Below are positions 1,812 through 58,216 of a DNA stretch of 58,216 nt, piece by piece. Numbering within the stretch: position 1 is the first letter of the stretch; every line of letters begins with the position of its first letter. The position numbers were made by a program, and so were the translations under genes. Below the pieces are notes generated by a model. It ran no database searches. It was not told where the DNA came from and was given only the letters and a program-made list of their open reading frames with translations. Source of the DNA: a virus; the IMG/VR virus record IMGVR_UViG_3300043411_002890, positions 1-58,216 of that record; one strand, given 5' to 3'.

Positions 1812-1826
1812 GTTCAGTGTCTTTTC

Positions 1827-4635: not shown

Positions 4636-4842
4636 CATCTTCTTTTTACTTAAAAACCGTTCAAATAAAAGCCCATGTTTCACAGGATCTACTTGTGTTA
4701 TACCTGTTGCGTAACACACCAAAGAACCTGCGCCAGAGTTATGAACGGGTATTCCTTCTACGTTGTACGAAGACTTATTTTTGACTGACAAATCATACAC
4801 TTTGCCAGAGTAAGGTACTTCTTTTTTCGATTTTAGTTTCAT
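4357..4842 (-). CDS. dnaE: DnaE piece 2: a 34-residue polymerase exon between two half-inteins
   Basis: Of 161 residues only 36-69 are polymerase: SGAGSLVCYATGITQVDP, then VKHGLLFERFLSKKKM. Residues 1-35 are an intein C-half (KVYDLSVKNKSSYNV, ending VHN) and 70-161 an intein N-half (starts CLDPDTYIKT, block B SPNH). Joining to piece 1 gives LLGAGRG-SGAGSL, the conserved DnaE nucleotide-binding loop (GRGSGAGSLVAYALGITDVDP in bacteria). Joining to piece 3 gives ERFLSKKKM-SLPDID. The protein must be spliced in trans at both ends. An AAGGA Shine-Dalgarno overlaps the stop of the upstream peptidyl-tRNA hydrolase, so translation is probably coupled. Confidence 0.94.
   Translation of the reverse strand: MKLKSKKEVPYSGKVYDLSVKNKSSYNVEGIPVHNSGAGSLVCYATGITQVDPVKHGLLFERFLSKKKMCLDPDTYIKTKDEIKQLKNINVGDMVYTHTNSYKPVIHKHESYHNKVLVFELENGTTLKSSPNHLWIVIRDGIKKELRADEIEITDEFIEML
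4738..4842 (-). other. Split intein C-half (DnaE site 1, GRG/SGAGS)
   Basis: Residues 1-35 of piece 2, with block F GKVYDLSV and block G GIPVHN, then Ser+1. The partner N-half ends piece 1 at 16143-16424, 11.3 kb away. Confidence 0.9.
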
Positions 4843-5622: not shown

Positions 5623-6458
5623 ACTGCTATCTCTAGATCTGCTTTTAGTTTTTGGGGAGAGTTAAATCCTTCTATTGTAAAGTCTTCTAGTTTTATTTCA
5701 TAAAAACTTTTTGAATGATTTAGTTCAAGCACTGGGGATTTATCGAGTGGTTCTTTTAAGATTAGTTCGTTTGCCGCGTTTAAATGCCTGTCATAAATGT
5801 GCAAATTATGAACATAATGGCAAAATTTTCCTGGTTTATATCCGAGATCAGAACAAACCATAAGCAATAAAGCATAATACTGAGCTTTATTTATCCAATT
5901 GGCCATAATATAATCTGAACTTCTCTGAATTAACGTTAAGTCTAATATAAATTTCCCATCTAGTTTTCTGACATTCCAAATGGTTTCATAAGCGCAAGGA
6001 TGCAAACCATTTGTTTCCTGAAGATCAGACTCTTGATATAAATTCATTATATGTCTTCTACTAAAGGGATCTTGCTTCAAACTATGTAATAGTTTATTCA
6101 TTAAATCCCATTTTCTGACGGTTGCACCATAACGCTGACCAATTGTGCCGTTTCCAATATCCCATTCGTCCCACCAATTAATCCCAGTTTGCTTCGCCGC
6201 GTCGAGCGAGGCGGTCTGCTGTTGGTATATCCACATTACCTCTTTAATCCCAGTTTTAACTGCCGTTGGTCGCAAGGTTGTGAATGGAAATTCTCCATTT
6301 AATAAGTCATATTCTTCAAATATTTGGTTTATGAATATACTTTTTGCAGGTGTGCCGTCTTTATATTTTGGTCTTGGATTTTCGTCTTTATATCCTTTTG
6401 TTGTTAACTTATATAAGTTTTGTTTGTAGTATTGGTCAGCTTTATTCATTTTTTTCAT
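5619..6458 (-). CDS. thyA: Thymidylate synthase
   Basis: A 279-residue ThyA-fold enzyme converting dUMP to dTMP with methylene-tetrahydrofolate. Landmarks are TTLRPTAVKTGIKE near the N-terminus, the DPFSRRHI arginine pair, catalytic Cys155 in GLHPCAYETI, LIQRSSDYIMANWIN (canonical QRS.D....P.N) and the C-terminal folate/dUMP loop HIYDRHLNAANELI. The residue after Cys-Ala is Tyr, not the usual His of PCH, a divergence seen in some phage enzymes. It is operonic with DHFR upstream, which recycles the dihydrofolate product. Confidence 0.95.
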   Translation of the reverse strand: MKKMNKADQYYKQNLYKLTTKGYKDENPRPKYKDGTPAKSIFINQIFEEYDLLNGEFPFTTLRPTAVKTGIKEVMWIYQQQTASLDAAKQTGINWWDEWDIGNGTIGQRYGATVRKWDLMNKLLHSLKQDPFSRRHIMNLYQESDLQETNGLHPCAYETIWNVRKLDGKFILDLTLIQRSSDYIMANWINKAQYYALLLMVCSDLGYKPGKFCHYVHNLHIYDRHLNAANELILKEPLDKSPVLELNHSKSFYEIKLEDFTIEGFNSPQKLKADLEIAV

Positions 6459-7105
6459 TCTTCCTTTTCTTCAAAATAGAAACCGTAAAGAGAATCACAG
6501 TCTATTTTCTTTGAATTTTTTAATAGTCCGAAACTTAACAATCTATGAGTTCCGTCAATTATTTTCATAGTTCCGTTTTTTGTTTTACAAACTACTATTC
6601 TATTTGTTGCAACCCAAATATTTTTAGAATTCAAAACATTGTGAGAAGACACTTTTGAGAGTTTTGGTAAAACTGTGTCATTTGCCGTAAGCCAAGAATT
6701 TAAGGAATCGACTCTTTTTTCTATATCGTTTATTGCATCAACAGACTTTTCTATATTATCTTTTGATTTTCTTACTATCGTAAAACCTTTTTTCTTTTTA
6801 ACAGACAGTTCGTAGCTATCCAAGAACTGTTCAAAACTTACAGAAGTATAACAAGACTCGTAACTTAATAACTCTTCAAAACTAAAATTGGCAATAACAA
6901 CAGAACTATCTTTAAGATAGTCAGAAATATATTGCCTCTTTGAATTGAAAATAACTTCTCTAAGTTTATTTTCTAAAGAAGAAGAAAAATCTGGTTTTAA
7001 TATTAAATCCTGATTCAATAATCTAATGTTGTTAGCCAATGCATGATCTCCATCAAGCATAGACCATATTAAAAACTCTTTGCTGGTTGCTAGTTTTACT
7101 TTCAT
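6455..7105 (-). CDS. Hypothetical protein with ParB-like DGTHR motif
   Basis: A 216-residue protein. The C-terminal third contains NGTMKIIDGTHRLLSFGLL, which resembles the DG.HR nucleotide-binding box of ParB/sulfiredoxin-fold proteins. The N-terminal half is helical and unassigned. Both ends overlap neighbours by 4 bp (thyA downstream, MORN-like gene upstream), indicating translational coupling. The ParB-like fold is a tentative reading from a single motif. Confidence 0.65.
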   Translation of the reverse strand: MKVKLATSKEFLIWSMLDGDHALANNIRLLNQDLILKPDFSSSLENKLREVIFNSKRQYISDYLKDSSVVIANFSFEELLSYESCYTSVSFEQFLDSYELSVKKKKGFTIVRKSKDNIEKSVDAINDIEKRVDSLNSWLTANDTVLPKLSKVSSHNVLNSKNIWVATNRIVVCKTKNGTMKIIDGTHRLLSFGLLKNSKKIDCDSLYGFYFEEKEE

Positions 7106-7410
7106 TTTATTATTAGTCCTGGGATGTCTGGGTATTCAAATATTTTATTTTTATCAAGAAGTTTGTACCATTTGATATTATACTTTCCCTTATCGTGGTC
7201 AAGAACAACATAGTCTTTTAGGTTTATTTTGGAATAGTAATGGCTTTCAAGATACCAATGTTTGGTTCCACTTGAATATTCACACGCTGGTCCACCTTCT
7301 CTATGATATTTACCATCTTTATACCATTCTTTTGTTCCACTTGAATATTCTGCAATACCAGTATAATTTTTTGGAATATCAAGACAAGATTTTACTTTTA
7401 TGGTTTTCAT
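7102..7410 (-). CDS. MORN-like repeat protein, tandem paralogue 6
   Basis: About 102 residues when started at the ATG at 7410, which forms an ATGA overlap with the upstream paralogue. A longer frame to 7440 exists but would extend further into that gene. It begins MKTIKVKSCLDIPKNYTG, has two short repeats of the type WYKDGKYHREGGPA, and ends with the family tail YPDIPGLIIK. This is the last and shortest member of the array before the ParB-like gene. Function unknown. Confidence 0.8.
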   Translation of the reverse strand: MKTIKVKSCLDIPKNYTGIAEYSSGTKEWYKDGKYHREGGPACEYSSGTKHWYLESHYYSKINLKDYVVLDHDKGKYNIKWYKLLDKNKIFEYPDIPGLIIK

Positions 7411-7784
7411 TTTTCTATTAGTCCTGGAATGTCTGGGCATTCAATTATTTTATCTTTGTTAAGGAGTTTGTACCACATAAGATTACATTTTCCTTCGTAG
7501 TAATCAAGGATAATATAATCATTTAGGTTTATATGGGAATAACATTCACTTTCAAGCCACCATTGTTTATATCCATTTGAAAATTCACATGCTGGGCCTT
7601 CTTCTCGATGCCGTTTTCCTTCTTTATACCATTCTTTTGTTCCACTTGGGTATTCAACCGCTGGTCCATCTTCTCGATGAAGTTTACCTTCTTTATACCA
7701 TTCTTTTGTTTCACTTAAAAAGTGAACAATCCCAGTGAAGTTTTCTGGAATTTCTGAAAGATCTTTTATTTTTATTGTTTTCAT
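7407..7784 (-). CDS. MORN-like repeat protein, tandem paralogue 5
   Basis: A 125-residue paralogue starting MKTIKIKDLSEIPENFTG. It has three repeats built on W(Y)KEGK.HRE(D/E)GPA.E followed by the conserved tail (DYIILDYYEGK, then CPDIPGLIEK). These repeats resemble the MORN-variant/YwqK-type beta-hairpin repeats found in phages and giant viruses. No catalytic residues are apparent. Confidence 0.83.
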   Translation of the reverse strand: MKTIKIKDLSEIPENFTGIVHFLSETKEWYKEGKLHREDGPAVEYPSGTKEWYKEGKRHREEGPACEFSNGYKQWWLESECYSHINLNDYIILDYYEGKCNLMWYKLLNKDKIIECPDIPGLIEK

Positions 7785-7796
7785 TTTACCACGAAT

Positions 7797-8243
7797 TTAC
7801 TTTTCAATCAATCCTGGAATGTCTGGATATTCTACAATTTCATCTTTAGTAAGAATTTTATACCACACGATCTCATCTTCTCCTTTAAAATAGTCGAGAA
7901 TAATATAATCATTTGGGTTTATTTGTTTATAAAAGTTGCCTTCGAGATACCAATCTCTATCTTCATCTGCCCATTCACATGCTGGCCCATCTGCTCTATG
8001 AAGTTTTCCTTCTTTGTACCACTTCTTTTCTCCATCTGCATATTCAACTGCTGGCCCATCTGCTCTATGAAGTTTTCCTTCTTTGTACCATTTCTTTGTT
8101 CCATGTGAATTTTCAACTGCTGGCCCATCTTCTCTGTGAAGATTACCTTCTTTATACCAACGTTTTGCTCCATCTGAATCTTCAACAATGCCTGTGAAGT
8201 TTTTTGGAATTTCTGAAACAGATGTTACTTTTATAGTTTTCAT
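7797..8243 (-). CDS. MORN-like repeat protein, tandem paralogue 4
   Basis: A 148-residue member, the longest of the six, because it holds one additional copy of the repeat (WYKEGKLHRADGPAVEYADG occurs twice almost unchanged). N-terminus MKTIKVTSVSEIPKNFTG and tail YPDIPGLIEK as in its siblings. The 12-nt gap to the next paralogue is the only one in the array without an ATGA overlap. The near-identical internal repeats suggest recent unequal recombination. Confidence 0.83.
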   Translation of the reverse strand: MKTIKVTSVSEIPKNFTGIVEDSDGAKRWYKEGNLHREDGPAVENSHGTKKWYKEGKLHRADGPAVEYADGEKKWYKEGKLHRADGPACEWADEDRDWYLEGNFYKQINPNDYIILDYFKGEDEIVWYKILTKDEIVEYPDIPGLIEK

Positions 8244-8617
8244 TTCTCAATCAGTCCTGGTATATCTGGGTATTCAAATATTTTATCTTCGCCAAGAAGT
8301 TTATACCACATAATCCCATATTTTCCCTCATATTCATCAAGAATAATTTGGTCTTTAAGAACTATTTGAGAATATCGTTCATTTTCAAGGTACCATCTTT
8401 TTGTTCCATCTGGCAATTCTTTTGCTGGACCATCTTCTCGATGCCACCACCCATTTTTATACCAAACCTTTGTTCCATCTGTATATTCAATTGCTGGTCC
8501 GTTTTCTCGATGACGTCTTCCGTCTTTATACCAAAATTTATCCCCATCGGGATATTCAACAATTCCAGTGAAATTTTCTGGTATCTCTTTCCATCTTTTT
8601 ACTTTTATAGTTTTCAT
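8240..8617 (-). CDS. MORN-like repeat protein, tandem paralogue 3
   Basis: A 125-residue member starting MKTIKVKRWKEIPENFTG with three HRE(N/D)GPA repeats and the tail FEYPDIPGLIEK. The first 15 residues are identical to paralogue 2, indicating a recent duplication or gene conversion of the 5' end. ATGA overlaps at both ends. Confidence 0.83.
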   Translation of the reverse strand: MKTIKVKRWKEIPENFTGIVEYPDGDKFWYKDGRRHRENGPAIEYTDGTKVWYKNGWWHREDGPAKELPDGTKRWYLENERYSQIVLKDQIILDEYEGKYGIMWYKLLGEDKIFEYPDIPGLIEK

Positions 8618-8922
8618 TTAGTTATAAGTCCTGGTATATCTGGATATTCAAATATTTTATCTTCGCCAAGAATTCTGTGCCAAATGAGGTTATATTCCCC
8701 TTGATAGGAATCAAGAATAACGTTATCTCCTAGAAATATTTGTTTATAACAAACATTGTTTAGATACCATTCTTTATACCCATCTGCATATTCACACGCT
8801 GGGCCATCTTCCCGATGTTGATCGCCATTTTTAAGCCAAAATTTATTTCCACTTGGATATTCCACGAGCCCAGTATAGTTTTCTGGTATCTCTTTCCATC
8901 TTTTTACTTTTATAGTTTTCAT
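8614..8922 (-). CDS. MORN-like repeat protein, tandem paralogue 2
   Basis: A 102-residue member starting MKTIKVKRWKEIPENYTG with only two repeats (NKFWLKNGDQHREDGPACEY and a degenerate one) and the tail FEYPDIPGLITK. It appears to have lost one repeat relative to its neighbour. Coupled by 4-bp overlaps on both sides. Confidence 0.83.
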   Translation of the reverse strand: MKTIKVKRWKEIPENYTGLVEYPSGNKFWLKNGDQHREDGPACEYADGYKEWYLNNVCYKQIFLGDNVILDSYQGEYNLIWHRILGEDKIFEYPDIPGLITK

Positions 8923-9260
8923 TTCTCAATCAGTCCTGGGATATCTGGGCATTCAAATATTTTATTCTTTCCAAGAATCCTATACCATATTAACCCATAC
9001 TTTCCCTCGTATTCATCAAGAATAATTTGATCTTTAAGAACTATTTGAAAATAAGAATCTCCTTCAAGATACCAATATTTTGTTCCATCTGGATATTCAA
9101 CGGCTGGTCCGTCTTCTCGATGACGTTTTCCTTCTTTATACCAATATTTTGTTCCATCTGCATATTCAATTGCTGGTCCATCTTCTCTATGAAGATTGTT
9201 GTTCTTATACCAGTGTCTTTCTTTGTTAGAAGAATGCCCAGAATAATCGTCTTTTTTCAT
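8919..9260 (-). CDS. MORN-like repeat protein, tandem paralogue 1 (atypical N-terminus)
   Basis: A 113-residue member with three HREDGPA repeats and the tail ECPDIPGLIEK. It lacks the shared MKTIKVK N-terminus and instead begins MKKDDYSGHSSNKERHWYKN. It lies directly downstream of DHFR (6 nt). As the first gene of the array, its 5' end may have been replaced or truncated. Confidence 0.82.
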   Translation of the reverse strand: MKKDDYSGHSSNKERHWYKNNNLHREDGPAIEYADGTKYWYKEGKRHREDGPAVEYPDGTKYWYLEGDSYFQIVLKDQIILDEYEGKYGLIWYRILGKNKIFECPDIPGLIEK

Positions 9261-9815: not shown

Positions 9816-11537
9816 TTACTTCTGGTTTTTTGTCGAGTCAAGTGTCAATCGTGCAATCACACTCATAACCATTACATTTCCTAGTGTCCACATTGCTGAA
9901 GATAGCCACCCAAGAGGAAATGCGTGCATTCCGCTTAGAAATGTACCCAACAAGAACGCTGCTGTTCCTATTGTAAATCCACCAATAGGTGCTCTAAGTT
10001 TTTTAGATGAATAGAATGTGGCTATTAGCACAAGAGGTAGAAAAGCACTTCCAAGAGGTAAGAATTGGTGAATAAAACTATTTGTATAGAGTGTTAGTTC
10101 ACCTGGGGGCACTGTTAGAAACTTGGGCAGCGTAAACGGAAGCCACATTGTAAGCAATGATAGGCCGAAAGCCGCATACATTGCAGGCAATACCCATTTT
10201 TTATGATCTTCGATCTTACCACCTTTTTTGGTTATTGCTCCCAAAACAGAGGCAAGAATAAGAATCAATGATAAACCACGCCAAAGTGTTTTCTTTGTTT
10301 CAATGCTGGAAACTGCATGTTTTGCGGACAAAACACCAGAGCCATAAAGTTCTGGGTTTCTATCTCCATGTTCAGGTCTTTGTGCTGAAGACCTTAGAAT
10401 TGACTCTACTGAATCAGGATTTGTTACGCCCATTGAAACAATCAAACCTGCAACTCCTGCAACATGCGGAGCTGCCATTGAAGTTCCCGACCATGCAACA
10501 AATTGCTCGCAGCCGTTTCGACCATTATCACAAATAGTTTGTTGTGGAATGTTAACTCCAGGAGCAGCAATCGCAATCTCTTGCCCACGAGAAGAAAAGT
10601 CTGCGATTGTATCGCCTGGGCCAATTGCACTAACTGCAAAAGCTCCTGGTTCATTTGCTGGGGATTCCACTCTATGTCCGTTGTTTCCTGCGGCACAGAT
10701 AACAACAGCTCCCTTATTTCTTGCATAAGCGACCGCTTCCGCCATAACACGGTTTCTTGGGCCGCCACCAAGAGAAAGATTGATAACATTTGCACCTTGA
10801 TCTGCCGCGAATCTGATTCCTTCCGCAACGTCTGCCAAAGTGCCAGAGCCACGAGCATCAAGAACTTTGACGGGAATGATTGTGGCGCAGTGAGCAATAC
10901 CAGCAAACCCGACTCCGTTATCTGTTGCCTGCGCAATTGTTCCAGCAACATGCGAACCGTGACCTTGGTCATCATTTGCATGATTGTTGTTTGAAACAAA
11001 GTTCCACCCTTCCACACAGTTTGTGGTATTCAAATCAGAAAGTCTCTGAAACCTTCCGTGAGTTTCACAGGCAACACCTGTATCAACAACCGCGATTCTA
11101 ACGCCTCTCCCGCATGTTTGATTCCATGCAGATTCAACTCCAATTCTTCTCAATCCCCATTGTTCAGAAAATCTTGGATCGTTTGGTGTACGAAACATTC
11201 GCATTTGATGGTTAGGCTCAGCACCTTGAACATTCGATTCATTTCTTAATGAAGAAATGATCTGTTCGCCGCGTGAATGTTCAGCTCTGAAAGTATAAAT
11301 TCTATCCTCACCAACCATTTGTGGAGTATTTGCCGTCAACGCAATCCCATATCTTCGAGATGTTTCTTGCACTGTTGATTCCGAAACAGAATCGGAAAAA
11401 TCAACAACGAATTCTTCTTGACCAGTATTTGTTTGCGATTCGTCATTGAATGTTGCATGCTGTGCTCTTGCGTTTGTTGACGCAAGAATAACAGATAGCA
11501 TCACCGATGTTGTTAGATAGGATCTTACGTTTCTCAT
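9816..11537 (-). CDS. Secreted/membrane S8 (subtilisin-like) serine protease
   Basis: A 573-residue protein. It has a signal peptide (residues about 1-25, hydrophobic core, ARA cleavage-like site), an inhibitor I9-like propeptide (about 40-115) and a peptidase S8 domain with Asp152 (IAVVDTGV), His193 (QGHGSHVAGT), Asn285 (AAGNN) and Ser353 (GTSMAAPHVAG). The C-terminal 150 residues hold about four TM helices, so the mature enzyme may be membrane-anchored. Codon use is visibly richer in G+C than the neighbours, which fits acquisition from a bacterial host. The SD is clear: GGAAACAAAGGAAAAAA precedes the ATG. A role in lysis, entry or predation of host envelope proteins is guesswork. Confidence 0.93.
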   Translation of the reverse strand: MRNVRSYLTTSVMLSVILASTNARAQHATFNDESQTNTGQEEFVVDFSDSVSESTVQETSRRYGIALTANTPQMVGEDRIYTFRAEHSRGEQIISSLRNESNVQGAEPNHQMRMFRTPNDPRFSEQWGLRRIGVESAWNQTCGRGVRIAVVDTGVACETHGRFQRLSDLNTTNCVEGWNFVSNNNHANDDQGHGSHVAGTIAQATDNGVGFAGIAHCATIIPVKVLDARGSGTLADVAEGIRFAADQGANVINLSLGGGPRNRVMAEAVAYARNKGAVVICAAGNNGHRVESPANEPGAFAVSAIGPGDTIADFSSRGQEIAIAAPGVNIPQQTICDNGRNGCEQFVAWSGTSMAAPHVAGVAGLIVSMGVTNPDSVESILRSSAQRPEHGDRNPELYGSGVLSAKHAVSSIETKKTLWRGLSLILILASVLGAITKKGGKIEDHKKWVLPAMYAAFGLSLLTMWLPFTLPKFLTVPPGELTLYTNSFIHQFLPLGSAFLPLVLIATFYSSKKLRAPIGGFTIGTAAFLLGTFLSGMHAFPLGWLSSAMWTLGNVMVMSVIARLTLDSTKNQK

Positions 11538-15707: not shown

Positions 15708-15724
15708 TGTTTTTGACTTATTTC

Positions 15725-15767
15725 TTGTGAGCAGAAAACTCACAGACTCGTCCTGTGAGTAGTTCAC
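15725..15767. mobile_element. 43-bp TnpB-element remnant (LE hairpin joined to RE end)
   Basis: It holds TTGTGAGCAGAAAA, then a hairpin CTCACAG...CTGTGAG (15739-15759), then TAGTTCAC. The left part matches the left end of the IS at 57261 and the right part matches the right end of the 196-bp element at 49732-49927. Removing exactly this segment restores a normal stop (VIPMK, TAA) to the upstream gene. It is probably a deletion between the CTGTGAG arms of the two end hairpins. Confidence 0.82.
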
Positions 15768-16142: not shown

Positions 16143-16424
16143 CTAAAATGCTACTTTTTCTAACTCATCATTTTCAATAAGTTCTTCAGCAGTAACCCAA
16201 CCTCGATTTTTTGTTAAAATCTTGTGGTCTTTAGTACATGACACAATGGTACCATCATCAAATTCAAGTTCCAAAATGTTTTCATCAATATCAAATTCCC
16301 ACAACTTCAAGACCTCTTGAACACTTCCATCGTGCGTATAGACCCAATCTCCCTCTTTAATATCTTTGATCATTTTTTTAGATTTGTGAAGCGGCATACA
16401 AACATTAGTGTTGGGAACAAAACA
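16143..16424 (-). other. Split intein N-half (DnaE site 1, GRG/SGAGS)
   Basis: Residues 512-604 of piece 1, Cys1, with the block A-like EGDWVYTHDG and block B TKDHKIL. It pairs with the C-half at 4738-4842. Confidence 0.9.
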
Positions 16425-17957
16425 GCCTCTACCAGCACCCAGCAGCATTTTCTTTCCTATTAAAGCAAGACTTTGTGAGCATGTCAAGAAGTACCTTGGA
16501 AGGTTTAAGTGTCGTATTACGTCTAATTCTTCCATTGCTCGATCTATATATTTTTGGTCATTGAGTTTATTTTTTGCTTCAAGTCCTGCAATAGTAAGAT
16601 CAACAAGTTCATTAAAACTTATTTCATCTTCTGTTAACCCAGTTGCTTTAAGAGTATCGAGTTTTGATTGATCAATAAGTTTATTGAGACTTGGAAGTTT
16701 TGGGCTTTTATCAAAAGTTATTTTTTTATCAATTGCATCATGTGCGATATCATGCGTTCGCTCAATAGCATCACAAATTAATTCACTATACTCTTCTGGG
16801 TAAAATGACGGGAATTCAGAAACACAATATTTTTGATACGCTCCCCACATCTGATCCGCATTTTTTGGATACAGTTCATAATCTAATTCTTCAATCTGTT
16901 GCGGGATAATTGACGGGTCAATTTCTTTTAATTTCTCCGTTGTCATTTTAGACATTGTTTTGTAAATTATACGTTCTTTCCAATGATCAGGATTAGGGTA
17001 ATGACAATCCGCTGTTGCGACTAACTTGACTCCCATTTGTTTCGATAGTTCAATTAAATGATAGTTCAATATCTGTTGATATGGAAGCCTATTGAATTGA
17101 AGTTCTAAAAAGAAATTATCTTTTCCATGAAAAGAATCAACAAATCTCTCGGTTAACTCCTTAAGCTCTTTCTGAATTAGATCAAATTTATAATTTTTAA
17201 GTTTATCTATTGAATTTACATATTGATCTGAGTTTAAGTTTAGATCAATATAATGCTTTATCAGCACCTTATTATGCAAGTTTCCAAGACAAGCGCTTGT
17301 TCCGATAATGTTTCCATTAGTATTTGCTTTCAACATTTCAAAATCAATTCTTGGAAAGAAATAAAAACCATCCCGATATGAAAGAGAAGTCAGTTTAAAC
17401 AAACTGTTTAATCCAGTAGTGTTTTTTGCTAGTAATACCAAATGACTTCTGGTTCTTAACGGATTTGCTGATTTATATGACTTTGTTTCTTCTTCATTCT
17501 CAACAACGGTTGTTTCTTCATTGCCCTCTTTAGATTCTAAAATAACAACATTTTCAGTATGTTCATTCAACTCTTCAATCCGTTTTTCTTCTATTGGATC
17601 TGAAACAATAATAAGATTTTCATCTTTAGAAGATTTTTTAGTTGCCTTTTTTTGTTTTTTCAGCTCTTCTTTTTCATTTCCTATTTGTTTTCGCAGCTCT
17701 TCCCACTCTTTTATACTAGGAATGAAATATGCTTCGATTCCGTGGATTACTTTGAACGGTGAGCCACTTTTTTCGAGCCCCTCATAATATTTATATGAAT
17801 GTGAAAATGCATTCATGTTACCGTGATCGGTTATCGCGTGTGCGGTCAATCCGTTTTGTTCGGCAAACTTAAAATGATCTGGAGGTAATCCAATTGCATC
17901 ACCTATACTTCCGTTCGAGTGCGCGTGGAGATTTACATATTTTGTTGGTTTTTTCAT
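16143..17957 (-). CDS. dnaE: DnaE piece 1: PHP domain and palm start, ending in a split intein N-half
   Basis: A 604-residue protein. Residues 1-511 are the N-terminal part of the PolIII alpha subunit: PHP domain with NLHAHSNGSIGD, ITDHGNMNA and VIHGIEAY, a charged linker insertion around 90-160, KLVATADCHYPNPDHW, and the start of the polymerase core ending RYFLTCSQSLALIGKKML followed by LGAGRG. Residues 512-604 are an intein N-half (CFVPNTNVCMPL, EGDWVYTHDG, block B TKDH). The ORF then stops, with no polymerase active site. The rest of the enzyme lies 11.3 kb downstream and beyond. It is directly downstream of the NrdA/NrdB region. Confidence 0.95.
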   Translation of the reverse strand: MKKPTKYVNLHAHSNGSIGDAIGLPPDHFKFAEQNGLTAHAITDHGNMNAFSHSYKYYEGLEKSGSPFKVIHGIEAYFIPSIKEWEELRKQIGNEKEELKKQKKATKKSSKDENLIIVSDPIEEKRIEELNEHTENVVILESKEGNEETTVVENEEETKSYKSANPLRTRSHLVLLAKNTTGLNSLFKLTSLSYRDGFYFFPRIDFEMLKANTNGNIIGTSACLGNLHNKVLIKHYIDLNLNSDQYVNSIDKLKNYKFDLIQKELKELTERFVDSFHGKDNFFLELQFNRLPYQQILNYHLIELSKQMGVKLVATADCHYPNPDHWKERIIYKTMSKMTTEKLKEIDPSIIPQQIEELDYELYPKNADQMWGAYQKYCVSEFPSFYPEEYSELICDAIERTHDIAHDAIDKKITFDKSPKLPSLNKLIDQSKLDTLKATGLTEDEISFNELVDLTIAGLEAKNKLNDQKYIDRAMEELDVIRHLNLPRYFLTCSQSLALIGKKMLLGAGRGCFVPNTNVCMPLHKSKKMIKDIKEGDWVYTHDGSVQEVLKLWEFDIDENILELEFDDGTIVSCTKDHKILTKNRGWVTAEELIENDELEKVAF

Positions 17958-21583: not shown

Positions 21584-23521
21584 TTATTCGTCTCCCTCAA
21601 AGATCTTACTAAAATCAACAACACCTTTCCCATATGCTGTTTCACGATTTTGGAAAAAATCTGTTTGTGATACTCCTTGCGAAAGAGCATCAAACCAAGC
21701 CATTCGTTTTAAAGAATCTTGATCTATATTTTTCCAATTTGTTTTACATAAAACTTCGCCAAGCTTTACGTTTGCACGATTACGAACAAATTGTTTAATG
21801 TCATGCACAGTTATTCCTTCTATTTCACCATGTTCGAATACTTTGTCAATAAAAGCGTCTTCAAGCTTTATTGTTTCTCTTGCGGCTTCATAAATTCGTT
21901 GCTTAACATCGTCTGTCCAAATTTCTGGGAACTCTTTTACGAGGGTTCTAAATAGCCATGTGCCTGCCTGGGAATGCAGGGATTCATCTAAAATTGACCA
22001 ATTAATGATCTGTGAAAGACCCTTAAGCTTATTAAATCTTGAAAAGTTAAACAATATCGCAAAACTTGAAAATAAAGAAACGCCTTCAGTAAAAGCAGAG
22101 AATATTGCAAGAGAGACTGCTATTTCTTTTAAATCTTTCGTATTTGGATCAATATTCAATAATCTATCGATTTTAGCTTTGGCTGTTGGTTCTTGAAGAA
22201 ACGCATCATAATCTTTTAAATCTAAACTATCATTTAGATAGGCATATCCAATGGCATGAACAGTGTTCCCAGTAAACGCAATCTTACCATTTCTTCTAGA
22301 AATAATATTTTGAGTTGGAACAGAAACGCAATAAACCTTATCGTTATAATCTATTTCTGTTCTATATGGATATGTTTTTTCCACTTGGTTTGAAAAAGTT
22401 AAAACATAGCAAGTTTTGGCAGTTTTTGATGTTTTTCCATTTGGTAACATTACAGTTAACGACTTTTCTTTTATTCTATTAACGGATAAACTTACAGCTA
22501 TATTTCCTAATACCGAAACTGCTTGTACAAAATCAATTGCTTCTTTATTGGTATTATACCAGCTTCTACCATCGGAACCATCCCAAAACAAAACTTCTTC
22601 AACGAATTCTTTTGCTTTTTCAGTTGAAAATGTTTCTAAATTAAAATGACCAAAGTTTTTTACTTTTTCAATATCAACTAATTCTCCAACTGAGAAAGTA
22701 AAATTAACAAATCCGTCTTTTAATATTTTTTTAGAGTATGATAAGTTTAAGTCTGATAATAATAATTCTAAACGCTTTATCTTTCTTTCTTTCTTTAGTT
22801 TAAAGTCGACAGTTTTCCAGGAAGCTTTACTTTTTGGACATAAGCCTCGTAAGCAACTATCTGCTTGTAGCGCAATAAGTAGTCTTTCAAATGAAGTTAA
22901 AATTTTGCTTGACCCGACAGAAAAACCAGCATTTGGATAAAGAAAATTAGATCCCCACTTTCCTTCAAAAGATTTTTTCTTTTTCACTTTTTTACTAGAA
23001 GGATGAATCAAAATTAATTCATGATTTGGCGTGACACAAATATCGGTTGATGTCGATTTGTAAACATGCATTTTTCCATTATATGGATAGCTTACAACTC
23101 TTGAAGGATTGACAAATGTGATTTCTTTAGTGTTTATATCATATTGTGCAACAATATCTTTTATTGTTAACTCAGATACATTTTTCCATCCTAAAGATGT
23201 TAACAATTCCGTTTCTTTGTCAAAGCACTCAAATGCCCCGAATGTCGAAGCCATCATCTGAATTTCAGGGTGTGGAAACCATTTTGCGACTCTGGAAGCC
23301 CAGTAATCTTCCACAACTAATTCAGTTTGAATAAACCCTTTTAGTACACCAGCGATAACAGACCTTTCTGATTCTGTTAAATTAAGTTTCCAGTCTTGGA
23401 TATCACTACTCATTACGACCTCAAATGGAAGCCAATGACTTTGTTGTTGTTTAAGCCAAAAATCATATGCTTTTTCGTAATGAAAAGGTTTATAAGTTAT
23501 TCTTTTATCTATGATTGTCAT
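21584..23521 (-). CDS. nrdB: Ribonucleotide reductase class I beta subunit with full-length intein
   Basis: A 645-residue precursor; the mature extein is 324 residues, normal for NrdB. Extein features are ERSVIAGVLKGFIQTELVVE near the N-terminus, FGAFE / TVHAIGYAYLND (the metal-ligand ExxH motif split by the intein), LFSSFAILFNFSRF, and ILDESLHSQAGTWLF with the second E..H metal pair. The protein generates the radical for NrdA. It has a 12-bp gap to nrdA and is co-directional with the helicase gene upstream. Confidence 0.96.
   Translation of the reverse strand: MTIIDKRITYKPFHYEKAYDFWLKQQQSHWLPFEVVMSSDIQDWKLNLTESERSVIAGVLKGFIQTELVVEDYWASRVAKWFPHPEIQMMASTFGAFECFDKETELLTSLGWKNVSELTIKDIVAQYDINTKEITFVNPSRVVSYPYNGKMHVYKSTSTDICVTPNHELILIHPSSKKVKKKKSFEGKWGSNFLYPNAGFSVGSSKILTSFERLLIALQADSCLRGLCPKSKASWKTVDFKLKKERKIKRLELLLSDLNLSYSKKILKDGFVNFTFSVGELVDIEKVKNFGHFNLETFSTEKAKEFVEEVLFWDGSDGRSWYNTNKEAIDFVQAVSVLGNIAVSLSVNRIKEKSLTVMLPNGKTSKTAKTCYVLTFSNQVEKTYPYRTEIDYNDKVYCVSVPTQNIISRRNGKIAFTGNTVHAIGYAYLNDSLDLKDYDAFLQEPTAKAKIDRLLNIDPNTKDLKEIAVSLAIFSAFTEGVSLFSSFAILFNFSRFNKLKGLSQIINWSILDESLHSQAGTWLFRTLVKEFPEIWTDDVKQRIYEAARETIKLEDAFIDKVFEHGEIEGITVHDIKQFVRNRANVKLGEVLCKTNWKNIDQDSLKRMAWFDALSQGVSQTDFFQNRETAYGKGVVDFSKIFEGDE
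22265..23227 (-). other. Full-length intein with LAGLIDADG-type endonuclease domain in NrdB
   Basis: Residues 99-419 (321 aa): starts CFDKETELLTSLGW, block B TPNH, endonuclease-like motifs RLLIALQADSC and EEVLFWDGSDG, block F KVYCVSV, end FTGN before Thr+1. It is inserted between the Glu and His of the diiron-ligand motif. Penultimate Gly, like the NrdA intein. Confidence 0.92.
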
Positions 23522-27090: not shown

Positions 27091-28758
27091 TTAGTCGATT
27101 CCGTGCTCCGAGACAGCGCCAGTAACCGCAGAAAATTCATCCTTGTCATCCATTTTTAATATAAAAGCTCCATCACAAAGTGAGAGGATATATGGTTTAT
27201 ATTTTTCATTTGTGAATATTGATGGAAAATCTACTTTGTAGAATTTCTTTTCTTCCACAATCTCTCCTGTTTTAATGTTAATAAGCTCAAAGGTTTTCCA
27301 CGCACCAGAACCTGTAAGTTGACCAACAATCCCATCATCAAGAGCATATTTTGCTTTGTTTTTTATAAACTTGTCCGATTCACAAAATATTCTGAGGTCA
27401 TCAAAAAGAAGTTCTAGATCTGTTACGCCTTTACCATAAATGATTTGTATTTCAGCTTGTCTATAAGGTCTTGCAACTTTATTTTTAACTGTTCCAATTC
27501 TTATTTGGATTCCTCTGATGATTTCTTGTTTGTCAACCGTTTCTTTTATTTTTTGTGGAGTATAAACTCTTAATCTAACTGATGCAGCAAAAGGAATTGC
27601 CATACCTCCAGGGGTCGTCGTGTTATGGTTTATTTGACCTTCAGCTAAGTAACAATTAGTATCTTTTACAGAAAGATCTAAAACTTCAATTTCTTTATCA
27701 ATTTTTATCGCCTCTGGGTGATTTTTTAGTTCTACCCATTCATTATTAAATAATACTTTATGATTTGCCGTACCCTTTAATGTTCCAAGCTGGTAGTGAT
27801 TATCACTTTTTTCTTTTACAACAAGATCTGTTATCTTGCTCCAGCAAGATAGTTTTGTTTTCTCATCATAACTTTCAATTTCGATATTTTCATCCTCAAC
27901 ACATAACATGCCAGGGTTTGAAAAATCATTAAGGCCATATCTTTTAAAGAGATCTTCTATCGATAGCTCTTCTATTTCATTTTTAACTTTTACTTTTATT
28001 TTTGTTTCAGGCGCAACACAAGCATCACCATGTAGTATTCCAATCTTTTGTCTTGTTTGATTAAGAAGAATTAGTGTCACTCCCTTATCCTTCAATATCT
28101 GATTAACTTTCATAATACCTTTGCTAAGGGCTCTAGCTTTAATTCCAATTTGCTGCTGCTCGTAAGTCGCCTCTAGCTCTACTCTAGAAACGGAGGCCGC
28201 TACAGAGTCCCACACGATGATTATAGGCATAGCCTTGTCTTGATTCTTAACAGAAGTTATAATTTGTTCAATCAACTGAAAAGTATCTTCAATACATTGT
28301 TCTTGTACGAAAATTAATTCATCAATATTAACTCCTATAACCGCTAAGTTTTCTAGTGAGGTAGCATTTTCAGAATCAATATAGACTGCAATAGCGCCTT
28401 CTCTTTGAGCTTGCGCACAAATTGTTTGTGCTAAAGTAGATTTACCAGATGAAGGTTCTCCGAAGATCTCTATAATTCTACCTTCTGGTATTCCTCCTCC
28501 TCGCTTATTTGAAATAATATAATCTAATTTTACTGCCGATGTTGTATACCAGTTTTTGACATTAGTTGGTGCATCTTCATCTGTATTAAGATTGAATGCA
28601 ATGCGCTCTCCTTTTGTCTTATTAATTTCACGAGTTATGTTTGAAATTAAACTGGCTTTTTTAGCCGTCGAGTTTTCAGAACTCGAATCAGCAGAGAGAC
28701 TATTCTTTCCTGTGGAGTTTCCTAGGTCTTGTTTTAGTGTTTTCTTTATTGGTGCCAT
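27091..28758 (-). CDS. uvsX: UvsX/RecA-type recombinase with intein in the L2 region
   Basis: A 555-residue precursor; the extein is 422 aa. Walker A is GEPSSGKST (100-108), Walker B MPIIIVWDSVAA, followed by IGIKARALSKGIMKV and LILLNQTRQKIG. The intein (247-379) lies between ILHGDA and TTTPGGMAIPFAASVRLRV, which aligns with RecA [20 protein letters not shown], the DNA-binding L2 loop. It catalyses strand exchange for recombination-dependent replication. The N-terminus is Ser/Lys rich. A terminator at 28804-28838 separates it from the SSB gene upstream. Confidence 0.95.
   Translation of the reverse strand: MAPIKKTLKQDLGNSTGKNSLSADSSSENSTAKKASLISNITREINKTKGERIAFNLNTDEDAPTNVKNWYTTSAVKLDYIISNKRGGGIPEGRIIEIFGEPSSGKSTLAQTICAQAQREGAIAVYIDSENATSLENLAVIGVNIDELIFVQEQCIEDTFQLIEQIITSVKNQDKAMPIIIVWDSVAASVSRVELEATYEQQQIGIKARALSKGIMKVNQILKDKGVTLILLNQTRQKIGILHGDACVAPETKIKVKVKNEIEELSIEDLFKRYGLNDFSNPGMLCVEDENIEIESYDEKTKLSCWSKITDLVVKEKSDNHYQLGTLKGTANHKVLFNNEWVELKNHPEAIKIDKEIEVLDLSVKDTNCYLAEGQINHNTTTPGGMAIPFAASVRLRVYTPQKIKETVDKQEIIRGIQIRIGTVKNKVARPYRQAEIQIIYGKGVTDLELLFDDLRIFCESDKFIKNKAKYALDDGIVGQLTGSGAWKTFELINIKTGEIVEEKKFYKVDFPSIFTNEKYKPYILSLCDGAFILKMDDKDEFSAVTGAVSEHGID
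27622..28020 (-). other. Mini-intein in UvsX/RecA
   Basis: Residues 247-379 (133 aa), starting CVAPETKIKVK, block B TANHKVL, block F EVLDLSVKDTNCYLA, end INHN before Thr+1. No endonuclease domain. Confidence 0.92.
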
Positions 28759-42784: not shown

Positions 42785-45148
42785 TTATTCTGCATTCAGG
42801 ATATCATTTGCCAAGTTAGCAAACTTACTTCTTTCACCTTTTGTTAATGTAATGTGTCCAACAATATCATTACCTTTGAATTTTTCAATCGCCACAATTA
42901 AACCGTTAGTAAATTTATTCAAATAGGTGTTATCTATTTGGTTTTGATCACCGAGGAAGATTATTTTTGTTCCTTCTCCAACTCTTGTAAGAATTGTTTT
43001 CATTTCATGCATACTAAGGTTTTGCGCCTCATCCACGATAAAGATACAATTTGGTATAGATCTTCCTCTGATAAATGTCGTCGCTTCAACTTGAATTATT
43101 CCTCGTTCAAATAGATCTTTCATCATAAACGAATGTTTCAGGTTTTCACCTTTTTTACCTTTTGTTGCACCTTTTGCGACGGCGTCGTCAATGTTTTCAT
43201 TTAGAAGAAATTCTAAGTTGTCTTTGAATGGCGCAATCCAAGGAGCCATTTTTTCATCTGCTGTATTATGTGTTACGATAAAGTCATCTGTAACGTACAA
43301 GTGCTCTGGATTTTCTACTCTAATACATTGAACTTCTTTTATACCAACTTTTGTTATTGAACTAATTCCAATATCAGTATCACGAATGCTATTTGCTTTT
43401 TGTAAGTTAGTATTAAATAATTTAACAGTCTTTGGAACAAAAATCTTAAATTTATATTCAGTTATGTTGCTTGTAGGTTCTACTTTAATATATCCTCCAA
43501 GACCATAAACAAGTTCAGAAATACTAGATTTAAAGTTTTTTGATTTAGTAGAATATGCTAAATCTCCATTTTTATTTGTTTTGCCGCCAATATCTATTAT
43601 ACCTTGCAACAAAGCGATTCTCAGCTCGAATGATGAGTTGTAAAGATATTCATTTGGAATCAAGTCTGATAGATTTTTATTAGAGATCGTCGCAAATTTT
43701 TCTTCTTCTTTTATTTTTTCAGTTATTTTGATATTTTTGACATTTCTATTTATAGAAAATTTATCTGAAAGTAGAACTCCTAATGTATAACCAGGAAGAT
43801 TTGATTTTGAGGATAAATTAAATTTAACGGGCTCATTTTTTGGAATAAAGAAATTTGGAATAAATTTTCCATCTTTTTCTTTCATTAAGTTTTCTTTGAT
43901 TTGTTTTGTAGAAAGAACTTTTCCTTGTTTTCCAAATTTTAACTCATCTTGTGTTTTTGCATACCACAAGTGGTCTTCACAACATTCGGTGATTTGCCCA
44001 TTTACGGTTTCAACACGAAATACTTCTTTTTTACCTTTTGGATATACTCCGATAATTTTAGTTGGTTTTCCATCTCTAGAAATTACTTTGTCTCCAATTT
44101 TAAGACTTCCCATTGTAACCCAACCTTTTGGCGTTAGGACTTTAGCATCTAAAGGTTGTGGTCCTGGTAACATTCCGATATCTTTTCCAAGAGGCTGAAT
44201 ATTTCTTGTAATTAAAATCTTGTTATATTTTCTTTGAGAAAGGGTTAATTCAAGGGCAGCAGCCATCGAGATCAAGTTTTTACCACAACCAGATTTAGAA
44301 TTAACAGAGACAAAACTAATTTTATCATCTAGAAGTAGATCAAGCAAGAATGCCTGTTCAACGTTTTTGCTTTTAATATTCCAAGCATTAGCTTGAAATG
44401 GAACATATTTCAAAGGCTGACCTGGAGCAATGAATCTTCCCGCAATTTTCGCGTCGGTTTCAGTTGACTCAAAGACTATAAATTGGTTTATGTATAGACC
44501 TTTTTCTTCTTCTTCAGTTAAGATAATTTGATTTTTGTTTTGATAAAACTTATCCATTTCTTCTTTTGAAATAGAAAATGTTTTGACGCCAGAATAAAAT
44601 TCAGATTCAGACGCAGGCATATTAAGTGTTTTTACAAGCTCTTTTGAAAGCTTCTTATAGTCTTCGCAATCTATTCCTACTGAGATTGCTTTAATTCTTA
44701 AAAGCAGATCTCTCGTAACTAAAATAACTTTTTCTTTGCTGAATTTTTGTTTATATTCTAAACAAAATTGAATTATCTTATTGTCGCCTTTAGATCCATC
44801 TAATTCTGGAATAGTGATTAAAACATTTGATTCTAAATCTTTTTGATTTAGAATTTTCAATTGTCCTTTGTTTTTCCCTATAGAGATTCCTGTTTTTACT
44901 TTTTGGCTATTTTCTTTTACTAATTCAATAAGTTGTCTTGTTATTTCTCTTGCGTTTTTACCAATATCATCTTGTTTATCTTTAAATCTATCTAGTTCTT
45001 CCACTACTATTAATGGAAGAACTATATCGTTATTTTGAAACGATTTTAAACATTCCGCATCTGACAATAGAATATTTGTATCTAAAATAAAAGTTTTCTT
45101 GTCTTCCTTTGAAACTTTTTTAGATTTTTTTACGATTTGTTTATCCAC
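42785..45148 (-). CDS. phoH: PhoH-like ATPase with N-terminal PIN domain and class 3-type intein
   Basis: 787 residues from GTG 45148, chosen because AAAGGA lies 6 nt upstream; an ATG at 45247 would extend into the upstream gene. It has a PIN domain at the N-terminus (KTFILDTNILLSDAECL, VVEELDRFKD, VILVTRDLLLRIKA) and a PhoH ATPase with a P-loop NSKSGCGKNL and Walker B CIFIVDEAQNLS. Ribonuclease plus ATPase is the YlaK/PhoH2 architecture. The P-loop has Asn where Ser/Thr is normal. The intein splits GMLPG / TADEKMAPWIAPF. Confidence 0.93.
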   Translation of the reverse strand: MDKQIVKKSKKVSKEDKKTFILDTNILLSDAECLKSFQNNDIVLPLIVVEELDRFKDKQDDIGKNAREITRQLIELVKENSQKVKTGISIGKNKGQLKILNQKDLESNVLITIPELDGSKGDNKIIQFCLEYKQKFSKEKVILVTRDLLLRIKAISVGIDCEDYKKLSKELVKTLNMPASESEFYSGVKTFSISKEEMDKFYQNKNQIILTEEEEKGLYINQFIVFESTETDAKIAGRFIAPGQPLKYVPFQANAWNIKSKNVEQAFLLDLLLDDKISFVSVNSKSGCGKNLISMAAALELTLSQRKYNKILITRNIQPLGKDIGMLPGPQPLDAKVLTPKGWVTMGSLKIGDKVISRDGKPTKIIGVYPKGKKEVFRVETVNGQITECCEDHLWYAKTQDELKFGKQGKVLSTKQIKENLMKEKDGKFIPNFFIPKNEPVKFNLSSKSNLPGYTLGVLLSDKFSINRNVKNIKITEKIKEEEKFATISNKNLSDLIPNEYLYNSSFELRIALLQGIIDIGGKTNKNGDLAYSTKSKNFKSSISELVYGLGGYIKVEPTSNITEYKFKIFVPKTVKLFNTNLQKANSIRDTDIGISSITKVGIKEVQCIRVENPEHLYVTDDFIVTHNTADEKMAPWIAPFKDNLEFLLNENIDDAVAKGATKGKKGENLKHSFMMKDLFERGIIQVEATTFIRGRSIPNCIFIVDEAQNLSMHEMKTILTRVGEGTKIIFLGDQNQIDNTYLNKFTNGLIVAIEKFKGNDIVGHITLTKGERSKFANLANDILNAE
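43265..44161 (-). other. Class 3-like intein in PhoH, lacking an N-terminal Cys/Ser
   Basis: About 299 residues, beginning PQPLDAKVLTPKGW and ending IVTHN before Thr. It has the WCT signature: Trp after the block B His (EDHLW), Cys in block F (EVQCIRVENPEHLY), Thr in block G (VTHN). The endonuclease core is degenerate: LGVLLSDKF keeps one Asp, but LLQGIIDIGG lacks the second catalytic acid. Confidence 0.85.
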
Positions 45149-45191
45149 TTTTATTCCTTTTGTTATATCTTGAAATGAAACTTGAACAACT

Positions 45192-45494
45192 TTAACTATC
45201 TTTAGTTGACTTCGTATTGAAGATAAATCCTCTTTTAATCTTGTCAAGTTCTAATTTTCGTTCTTTTTGTAAAAGATGAATGGCTCTATAAAGGTATAGA
45301 CTAACTGTTCTTAATCTTGTAAGTTTTTTCCTTGCACGTCGGCCTGCGGAAAAAATTCCTTTGTTAATAAACTTGTCAAAATCTTTATTAATAAATCTTA
45401 GAAGAAGATCATATTCTTTTTTTAAAAGATATGGATTATCTTTTATTTCTTCTAAATTTGCAGGTTTATACTTCTCAGCTTTTTTCAATGGCAT
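45192..45494 (-). CDS. Hypothetical basic protein
   Basis: 100 residues from ATG 45494, whose start overlaps the upstream stop (TAATG) with AAAGAAG just before. Helical and rich in Lys/Arg/Leu (FSAGRRARKKLTRLRTVSLY), without recognised domain. It may be a small nucleic-acid binding or virion protein. It lies in an operon with the coiled-coil/TM gene upstream and PhoH downstream. Confidence 0.75.
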   Translation of the reverse strand: MPLKKAEKYKPANLEEIKDNPYLLKKEYDLLLRFINKDFDKFINKGIFSAGRRARKKLTRLRTVSLYLYRAIHLLQKERKLELDKIKRGFIFNTKSTKDS

Positions 45495-48983: not shown

Positions 48984-49550
48984 ATGTCAACCAGAAAACC
49001 AAGCCCTTTTGATGTTATTTATGAAGCTAAAGAAGATGTTATTCCAACTGCAAAACGTAAATGGCATCAACCAGACAAAGGCAAGGTTTCATATGAAGAG
49101 ATGGTAATGTGGATCAAATCAAAACTTGATTCTGATATTGATGATTTAGATCAATATCATTTGATTGTTGGAACAGATTCACAAAAACGATCTCATAAAA
49201 TTAGATTCGTTACTATAATAACATTATACAAAGAAGGAAAAGGAGGTATGTACTTCTATACAAGTCATCTTTTACCAAAGACTTTATTTGGTAAACATAA
49301 AAATGATAAATCAAGAATTTACCAAGAGGTCGATTACTCGATTGAAACAGCAAATGAACTGATGACAGTTTTAGGAGACTATCTAGTTCCTTCGGTACAC
49401 GTTGATGTATCACCAAAAGCAAAAAAAGAATATACATCTGATATTTCTGATAATCTTATTTCACTTGTAAGATCTTATGGATTCGAACCAGGAATAAAAC
49501 CATTTTCTTTTGCCGCATCAACGATAGCAAACAAACACAGCAAGAGTTAA
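48984..49550 (+). CDS. YkuK-like (DUF458) RNase H-fold protein
   Basis: 188 residues. YHLIVGTDSQKRSHKIRFVT is the first strand with a catalytic-type Asp (GTDSQ), SVHVDVSPKAKKEYTSD is the second acidic site, and GFEPGIKPFSFAASTIANKHSKS is the C-terminal family signature (KP.s.AA...AD...k). The family is predicted to be an RNase H-like nuclease. It has its own promoter and SD. Confidence 0.86.
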   Translation: MSTRKPSPFDVIYEAKEDVIPTAKRKWHQPDKGKVSYEEMVMWIKSKLDSDIDDLDQYHLIVGTDSQKRSHKIRFVTIITLYKEGKGGMYFYTSHLLPKTLFGKHKNDKSRIYQEVDYSIETANELMTVLGDYLVPSVHVDVSPKAKKEYTSDISDNLISLVRSYGFEPGIKPFSFAASTIANKHSKS

Positions 49551-50021
49551 AAGTCTATTTCGTAACTTCCTTCATAGAAACTTAAATCGAGTATTGCGAA
49601 ATCTCCATTTGCTTTGAAGCCAAAATTATTTAAATGCATATCGGTCAGAGATATTTTACAATTTGTTATATCAGTCAAAAACTGTTTAAATTTTGGTTTT
49701 GATAATAGGTATCTTAAGATATTTTTATTTGTTGTGAGTAGAAAACTCACAGGCTCGTCCTGTGAGATGAATGCAAACAATTTAGTAAATTCAAACTTAT
49801 ACTATACTTATACAGGCATGGAGGGAATATAAAAGCAGGTGCAAACTTGGAAATTTCCGATGAAATGCTTAAAGTTTCGGGGTTTTCAACTTCGGAAGCT
49901 CACAACCTTGTGCTGTGAGTAGTTCACTGAATATATTAATAATGGAAACCTCTTTATTCGTTACAAACCTGGATCGGGTCTCTGTTATTTTCTTCATGTT
50001 TCTGAAATAAATAGAAAACAT
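49547..50021 (-). pseudogene. Small kinase-like gene interrupted by a MITE
   Basis: The minus-strand frame starts at ATG 50021 (MFSIYFRNMKKITETRSRF), is broken by the 196-bp element at 49732-49927, and resumes as TNKNILRYLLSKPKF to SLTDMHLNNFGFKANGDFAILDLSFYE and a stop at 49547. Removing exactly 196 bp restores one open frame of about 92 codons (IINIF-TNKNIL). DMHLNNFGF...AILDLSF resembles the D.H..N......iiD.g. catalytic/metal segment of kinase-like proteins. The shorter frame 49547-49780 contains element-encoded residues at its start. Confidence 0.8.
49732..49927. mobile_element. 196-bp MITE derived from the TnpB element
   Basis: The left end (TTGTGAGTAG, hairpin 49746-49766, and about 60 bp after it) is nearly identical to the left end of the IS at 57261. 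The right part keeps the last codons of a tnpB-like frame (HGGNIKAGANLEISDEMLKV to NLVL, stop), followed by the right-end hairpin 49899-49919 and TAGTTCAC. It has no transposase, so it could be mobilised only in trans. Precise excision restores the host gene, and there is no target duplication. Confidence 0.88.
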
Positions 50022-57188: not shown

Positions 57189-57260
57189 CTATCCTTCTTT
57201 AAGGAAGCTTGCTAGGTCATTAACTAATTCGATATCCGTTTTCTTTAACCAATTTATTTC
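57189..57260 (-). pseudogene. C-terminal stub of a gene cut by the TnpB element
   Basis: The minus-strand frame ending at 57189 encodes NWLKKTDIELVNDLASFLKEG and runs into the IS left end at 57261. It is probably the 3' end of a gene whose 5' part lies right of the element, outside the window. Confidence 0.55.
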
Positions 57261-58216
57261 TTGTGAGCAGAAAACTCACAGGCTCGTCCTGTGAGATGAA
57301 TGCGAATAATTTAGCAAATTCAAACTTATACTATACTTATTAAGTAGTATAGAAATGCCCCTGCAAAATAAGACATACCAATTTAGGATCTATCCAAATG
57401 CAGAACAGCAACAGTTGCTCTCGAAAATGTTTGGATGCTCTCGTTTTGTTTGGAATTACTTTCTTAATAAAGAAAAAGAATATTTTCTCAATAACCAAGA
57501 AAAAGCTGAAGAAGAAAGAACAAAAAACTACCTTTCCTACTTCGATAATGCAAAAGCTTTAACACTGTTAAAACAAGAGCCAGAAACAAAGTTTCTAAAA
57601 GATGCAAACTCGCAAAGTTTGCAGGTGACACTCAAAAACTTAGATGTTGCTTATAAAAGATTCTTCAAAAAACAAAGTGGTTTTCCAAGGTTCAAAAAAA
57701 AACTTGGAAAACAATCTTTCTCCGTTCCTCAAAGCCTCTCAATTGAAAATGGAATGCTCCATATTCCTAAGTTTAAAACGGGAATCAAGATTAAACAACA
57801 CAGACCAATCAAAGGCAAGATCACAACTTCAACCATTACTAAAACATCAACCAATAAGTATTTTGTTTCTATTTCTGTAGAAGAAAATATCGAGCATTTG
57901 CCCAAAATGGCAAATTCGGTTGGAGTTGACCTTGGAATCAAGAGCTTCGCTTTTTTGTCCAATGGAGAAGAAGTAGCAAACCCAAAATACCTTGAAAAGC
58001 AAACAAAGCAACTAAAAAGGCAACAGCAGCATCTTTCAAGGAAAGAAAAAGGATCAAACAGCAGAAGTAAACAAAAGCTAAAAGTAGCTAAAATTCACGA
58101 AAGGATTACCAATCTCCGAAGAGATTTTCAACATAAGCTTTCATCGAAACTAATTCACGAAAACCAAGTGATTTGTATTGAGGATTTAAGCGTTAAAAAC
58201 ATGTTGAAAAACCATA
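57261..58216 (+). mobile_element. IS200/IS605-family TnpB-only element (right end outside the window)
   Basis: Begins TTGTGAGCAG, left-end hairpin CTCACAG...CTGTGAG at 57275-57295, then about 60 bp shared with the MITE at 49732, then tnpB. There is no tnpA between the left end and tnpB, so it needs a transposase in trans or lies in the IS1341-type group. The flank is ...TTATTTC. Confidence 0.9.
57355..58216 (+). CDS. tnpB: TnpB RNA-guided nuclease (truncated by the window edge)
   Basis: The first 287 residues are visible. MPLQNKTYQFRIYPNAEQQ is the typical TnpB N-terminus, followed by the WED/REC region FGCSRFVWNYFLNKEKEY, then SGFPRFKKKLGKQSF. In the RuvC domain, the first catalytic Asp is in SVGVDLGIKSFAFL and the Glu in VICIEDLSVKNM. 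The zinc finger and last RuvC Asp, plus the omega-RNA region, lie to the right. TnpB cuts DNA guided by an RNA from the element's right end and helps the element persist. Confidence 0.95.
   Translation, partial: MPLQNKTYQFRIYPNAEQQQLLSKMFGCSRFVWNYFLNKEKEYFLNNQEKAEEERTKNYLSYFDNAKALTLLKQEPETKFLKDANSQSLQVTLKNLDVAYKRFFKKQSGFPRFKKKLGKQSFSVPQSLSIENGMLHIPKFKTGIKIKQHRPIKGKITTSTITKTSTNKYFVSISVEENIEHLPKMANSVGVDLGIKSFAFLSNGEEVANPKYLEKQTKQLKRQQQHLSRKEKGSNSRSKQKLKVAKIHERITNLRRDFQHKLSSKLIHENQVICIEDLSVKNMLKNH

Follow-up and report, generated by a model that had tools for sequence, protein, structure and literature searches.

The 58,216-base stretch analysed here (the window) is the IMG/VR virus record IMGVR_UViG_3300043411_002890, and it carries three copies of one repeat, all on the plus strand: E1, a 46-bp single-hairpin copy (15722-15767) in which a left-end half is joined to a right-end half; E2, a 199-bp copy (49729-49927); and E3 (57258-58216), a left end followed by the first 287 codons (57355 on) of a complete-type tnpB gene that is cut by the contig end. 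Elsewhere, intein-like inserts appear to interrupt core replication genes (549-4842, 16143-17957, 21584-23521, 27091-28758 and 42785-45247). The seemingly interrupted genes encode DNA polymerase III alpha, the ribonucleotide reductase small chain, RecA and a PhoH-like protein; Hint/intein domains are weakly detected in several of them, and the polymerase III alpha sequence is divided among several frames. At least five tandem paralogous genes with HREDGPA-type repeats, 62–73% alike in DNA, occupy 7102-9260, and a phage-encoded subtilase (Peptidase_S8) with a C-terminal membrane-like part lies at 9816-11537; the related phage G001 has one too.

E2 is too short for a transposase gene, and its ends match those of E3 and of a complete element in the related phage G004. 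It opens with a left end (49729-49811, 94% identical to that of E3) and continues with 116 nt made up of the final 34 tnpB codons and the right end; this right part shares 81% identity with the 3' terminus of a related complete element. Comparison with complete TnpB places the tnpB remnant at 49814-49918 on the plus strand, where 34 codons and a stop persist in an intact frame and translate to RHGGNIKAGANLEISDEMLKVSGFSTSEAHNLVL. Palindromes near both termini form hairpins at 49746-49766 (CTCACAGGCTCGTCCTGTGAG) and 49899-49919 (CTCACAACCTTGTGCTGTGAG), and the termini themselves, TTGTTGTGAG and TAGTTCAC, are not inverted repeats of each other. By the published definition (PMC3119063), E2 has the anatomy of a PATE, a palindrome-associated derivative of IS200/IS605. 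A preliminary description had read the element as a left end, the last tnpB codons and a right end, which the identities with E3 and the complete element and the 34 in-frame codons bear out, and was right to see in it a non-autonomous tnpB derivative of IS200/IS605 in a phage. Two other classes were rejected: an autonomous IS200/IS605 element would have its own Y1 transposase (TnpA), which E2 does not carry, and an IStron is at odds with the position of E2 on the strand opposite the interrupted frame and with an Rfam scan of the window that returned no match, introns included. No promoter above chance was found on the plus strand within E2 or the E3 left end.

In IS608, an IS200/IS605 element of Helicobacter pylori, base 4 of the guide pairs with position -1. 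Each hairpin has on its 5' side a guide of four bases, which pairs with a four-base cleavage site (left guide AAAG with TTAC, right guide GAAT with TCAA), the first two bases of the left guide pairing with positions -3 and -4 (PMC5934647). E2 is similarly arranged, with guide bases 5' of each hairpin that pair with cleavage sites and with insertion 3' of a four-base site that stays in the left flank; it differs in its sites (TTAT and TCAC) and in that IS608 encodes its own TnpA. The left guide AAAA (49742-49745), directly 5' of the left hairpin, matches TTAT (49725-49728, within the flank TTTAT) by the IS608-type code (PMC5934647), and the right guide GAAG (49895-49898), 5' of the right hairpin, matches TCAC (49924-49927), the final bases of E2; both pairs satisfy all three positions of the code. 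Among related copies, right guide CAAG is matched by TGAC in phage G006 and contig L054, and left guide GAAA follows a TCAT flank in two G006 left ends. Such covariation between guides and cleavage sites supports the borders and transposition of the IS200/IS605 type independently of reading frames. Two copies in phage G007 have guide AAAA and flank TTCTAT, of which TTCT also fits the code, and the position of the border is less certain for these two. Retargeted ends (right CAAG/TGAC; left GAAA/TCAT in G006) mark a diverged sister group at L044 16589-16940 (minus strand) and L054 1-123. A search for TnpA (PF01797) in eight records, the window and seven related ones, all of them possibly fragments, found none, and the protein would therefore have to act in trans.

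The target- or TAM-like flank TTTAT (49724-49728) stands directly before the left end of E2, as it does before those of E3 and of copies in G002, G003, G004 (three), G005 and G006 (two); nearly every copy that shares the left guide follows it, E1 being preceded by CTTAT instead. Excision of sister copies from TTTAT to TTCAC reopens frames across the junction of 301 codons for the complete G004 element, 114 for the G004 miniature G004m1 and 121 for the G002 miniature G002m, and border shifts of one or two bases close these frames. TTTAT occurs on the left side only and the three sister-copy frames reopen without a duplicate; the fixed 5' TTTAT and these restored frames support the earlier proposal of insertion without target duplication. 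Flank context, sister-copy frames and the guide/cleavage code agree, and the borders of E2 appear best placed at 49729-49927, directly 3' of TTTAT. The left border first proposed, 49732 (an element of 196 bp), was rejected because TTTAT/TTAT borders suit the other copies and the guide code; it lies three bases off, and three bases of the flank then given, TTTATTTG, belong to E2. Joining the flanks at the 49729/49927 borders yields TTTTTAT followed by TGAATATATTAATAATGG (TTTTTAT/TGAATA), as against TATTTG/TGAATA at 49732. Just 3' of E2, the right flank (about 16 nt) reads UGAAUAUAUUAAUAAU.

On the minus strand, E2 interrupts a reading frame at 49547-50021 (pieces 49547-49728 and 49928-50021) that has 92 codons (91 aa) once E2 is removed. 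The frame reopens with either 196 or 199 bp taken out (SIINIF/NKNIL with 199), and the frame argument cannot separate the two lengths because they are equal modulo 3. It had been claimed that exact excision restores a gene: the joined frame is indeed open, whilst restoration of a gene is compatible with the data and not established, because 7.2% of random 199-nt deletions in the window open, on both sides, a frame of equal or greater length, and because the interrupted gene is absent altogether from L020 and L021, the syntenic phage contigs closest to this one, in which the RNase H-like gene directly adjoins the counterpart of the 50052 gene. No relatives of the joined protein were confirmed in viral contigs, phages (best E about 6) or the PDB, its ABC1 kinase-like match in Pfam (E 0.029) falls under that family's cut-off, and a pattern for the exact empty site, allowing 0–4 bases for either border, had no match in the viral collection. 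Frame restoration is the weakest evidence for the border of E2. The minus-strand gene itself, with a kinase-like DMHLNNFGF motif and the weak ABC1 match, was found in this phage only, between plus-strand genes that two relatives have side by side. A plus-strand frame running from E2 into the gene at 50052 was rejected as non-coding, the homologues in L020 and L021 starting at the equivalent ATG.

The tnpB gene of E3 has the Pfam domains OrfB_IS605 and HTH_OrfB_IS605, and its product is 85% identical to TnpB of two IMG/VR contigs, one of them G004 (65.6 kb), whose complete element is 1357 bp long and encodes a TnpB of 416 aa, alongside two miniatures of about 260 bp. This complete TnpB is clearly related to that of ISDra2, the alignment covering about 390 residues (E about 1e-78); RuvC-type residues were recognised by eye as D (GVDLGIK), E (CIEDLSV) and D (QRDWNASKN), and E3 holds the first two ahead of the contig end. 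Phages G002 and G006 have one miniature of about 260 bp each, and G006 also has a diverged miniature of about 357 bp, with left ends running off both contig ends. The miniatures of about 260 bp (L029 6514-6781, minus strand, and 16453-16727, plus strand; L028 15999-16268; L047 9163-9428) form a separate tnpB-less family in G004, G002 and G006, with the omega-RNA and a different middle part. Two of them, G004m1 and G006m, are 96% identical and occupy different sites, so this type has moved as a miniature; E2 is present as a single copy, and differing insertion sites were seen only for the miniatures of about 260 bp. The related phages hold the same three size classes as the window (complete, miniature and 46-bp). 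Several contigs end within a copy (57258-58216 in the window; L033 1-1050; L044 1-120; L048 6420-6542), as if the repeats had broken the assemblies, and copy numbers are therefore underestimated. The exact left-end pattern of the window had no match in viral contigs and a relaxed one matched 8 stretches; a search of 84,980 prokaryote genomes for the left-end pattern returned nothing, and among bacterial TnpB proteins the best full-length match reached 47% identity, so no host copy was found.

The 46-bp class comprises four copies: E1, one in G005 and two in G007, those other than E1 lying at L034 5108-5151 (minus strand) and at L049 764-807 (minus strand) and 6097-6140 (plus strand). Each has one hairpin, with the left arm from the left end and the right arm from the right end, and in three of the four the arms no longer fully match (CCCACAG/CTGTGAG in G005; CTCACAG/CTGTGGG and CCCACAG/CTGTGAG in G007), which argues for separate recombination events and not for the spread of one copy. 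All combine left guide AAAA with right cleavage site TCAC, E1 failing the code at two of three positions; as AAAA does not fit TCAC, these copies should be dead, and E1 would be a dead scar of recombination between the two end hairpins. With the 46 bp removed at E1, the upstream gene ends in KDNVIPI and a stop, at the same length as its G001 homologue (KDNIIIF and a stop). A 44-bp border for E1, which would fuse two genes, was rejected because the TTAT border agrees with the guide code, with the other copies and with the homologue in G001. In form, the 46-bp copies resemble solo LTRs, the scars of deleted elements.

The 116 nt at 49812-49927 on the plus strand make up a putative omega-RNA core, supported by RNAalifold, pair counts and a covariance model. 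From an alignment of six sequences (E2 with its 116 nt, and the corresponding 3' parts of four miniatures and one complete element), RNAalifold derived a consensus fold of 30 pairs in four helices; compensatory changes occur in seven of these pairs. In E2, which retains 29 of the 30 pairs, the helices are P1 (49814-49819/49865-49870), P2 (49823-49828/49853-49858), P3 (49875-49883/49889-49897) and P4 (49898-49906/49912-49920), and the deletion stops two bases ahead of P1. Paired cells amount to 98.9%, against 92.8% in column shuffles and 35–55% in slid controls, and double-change pairs number 7, against 2.7 and 0–1 respectively. Helix P3 reads TTTCGGGG/CTTCGGAA in E2, TTCTAGAG/CTTTAGAA in the complete element and TTCCTGAA/TTCAGGAA in G002m, the pairing being the same and the sequence different. 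The covariance model gives 121.9 bits for E2, which is itself in the model's alignment, and only 33.6 bits for the diverged G006m2. All six short copies with both guide/cleavage sets (E2, G002m, G004m1, G004m2, G006m and G006m2), representing about three independent lineages, have the right-end RNA part. A structured omega-RNA at the 3' end of tnpB, running to the right end, appears from these alignments to be conserved, and the covariation supports the earlier suggestion that the retained 3' part folds as such an RNA. A scaffold of 116 nt is enough in ISDra2 (PMC10097598), and E2 retains as many, an equality of length that may be coincidence and does not establish that the helices are equivalent; the TAM of ISDra2 is TTGAT, in contrast to TTTAT for the E2 family.

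We consider it highly probable that E2 is a PATE of a phage-borne, tnpB-only IS200/IS605 family, a core-deleted copy that has kept both ends and the omega-RNA part and would depend on TnpA and TnpB supplied in trans. An internal deletion would have taken nearly all of tnpB and spared both recognition ends and the omega-RNA core. TnpA acting in trans would excise and insert E2 as a single strand, 3' of TTTAT and without duplication of the target. A complete copy such as E3 could provide the TnpB that loads the E2 RNA, whose 16-nt guide would, by analogy with TnpB biology (PMC10097598), be the right flank TGAATATATTAATAAT (49928-49943, plus strand); the two together would cut insert-free alleles, and E2 would be restored or spread by recombination. 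One study (PMC10278001) reports that TnpB matures omega-RNA from its own mRNA, and a transcript through E2 might by the same token be processed by the E3 TnpB.

The strongest rival, which we rate at slightly below an even chance, is that E2 is debris in decay, left by a complete tnpB element that inserted here and then lost its middle in place, with neither mobility nor RNA function left or selected. Core deletions are common in the family, as the four scars of the 46-bp class attest, and a lone copy with a left end so close to that of E3 and a tnpB tail still in frame may be young. Since that tail remains open, the deletion may be recent, and the omega-RNA fold of E2 may merely have been inherited. 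Yet both guide/cleavage sets and all but one of the RNA pairs are intact, the deletion ends just short of P1, and independent miniatures in other phages retain the same RNA part. It seems unlikely that this part was kept only as right-end DNA needed by TnpA and not for RNA function: the right hairpin (P4) and guide GAAG do serve both the RNA and the DNA end, but P1 to P3 lie outside the hairpin and guide that TnpA needs, and P2 and P3 nonetheless show compensatory changes. A classical MITE, the class originally named, would share the small size, the several copies and the want of coding capacity, and can be dismissed as wrong, for E2 has subterminal hairpins, a TTTAT target and an IS608-type code instead of terminal inverted repeats and target duplication.

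As a PATE with a retained omega-RNA part, E2 joins a class already published, including core-deleted forms and forms that keep the tnpB 3' end (PMC3119063, PMC7290912). Those of Haloquadratum walsbyi (HqIRS46, HqIRS71 and 52-bp derivatives of ISHwa23) likewise have near-terminal palindromes, lack terminal inverted repeats and target duplication and are too short for a transposase, and the 52-bp terminal-only forms, produced by repeat-mediated deletion between palindromes, resemble E1; they differ in residing in an archaeal chromosome and not a phage, omega-RNA structure was not considered there, and the authors think that the 52-bp form may still be mobile (PMC3119063), whereas the guide of the E1 type misfits its cleavage site. 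A PATE-like element of 271 nt in Halanaerobium hydrogeniformans is similar in keeping a left hairpin, the final 58 nt of tnpB and an entire right end, and differs as a single copy in a bacterial chromosome (PMC7290912). What is added here is a family carried by phages, in which all short copies with both ends also keep the omega-RNA part, and with it the phage setting, the three size classes together, the guide/cleavage covariation and the compensatory RNA changes in tnpB-less copies. PATEs were reportedly also discussed in work on Geobacillus TnpB.

A more speculative possibility, which we hold to be doubtful, is a two-part system of RNA-guided homing, in which complete copies would provide TnpB, each tnpB-less copy with the omega-RNA would bring a site-specific guide of its own, every insertion would thereby drive itself into those co-infecting phages that lack it, and selection would keep the RNA, and not the protein, in short copies. 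One set of phages holds complete tnpB elements, miniatures that keep the omega-RNA and single-hairpin scars, and offers a small system for two questions: whether TnpB can serve tnpB-less miniatures in trans, and whether it behaves like a homing endonuclease between co-infecting phages. The natural covariation of the ends (TTAT/TCAT; TCAC/TGAC) also provides naturally retargeted ends for studies of single-strand transposition.
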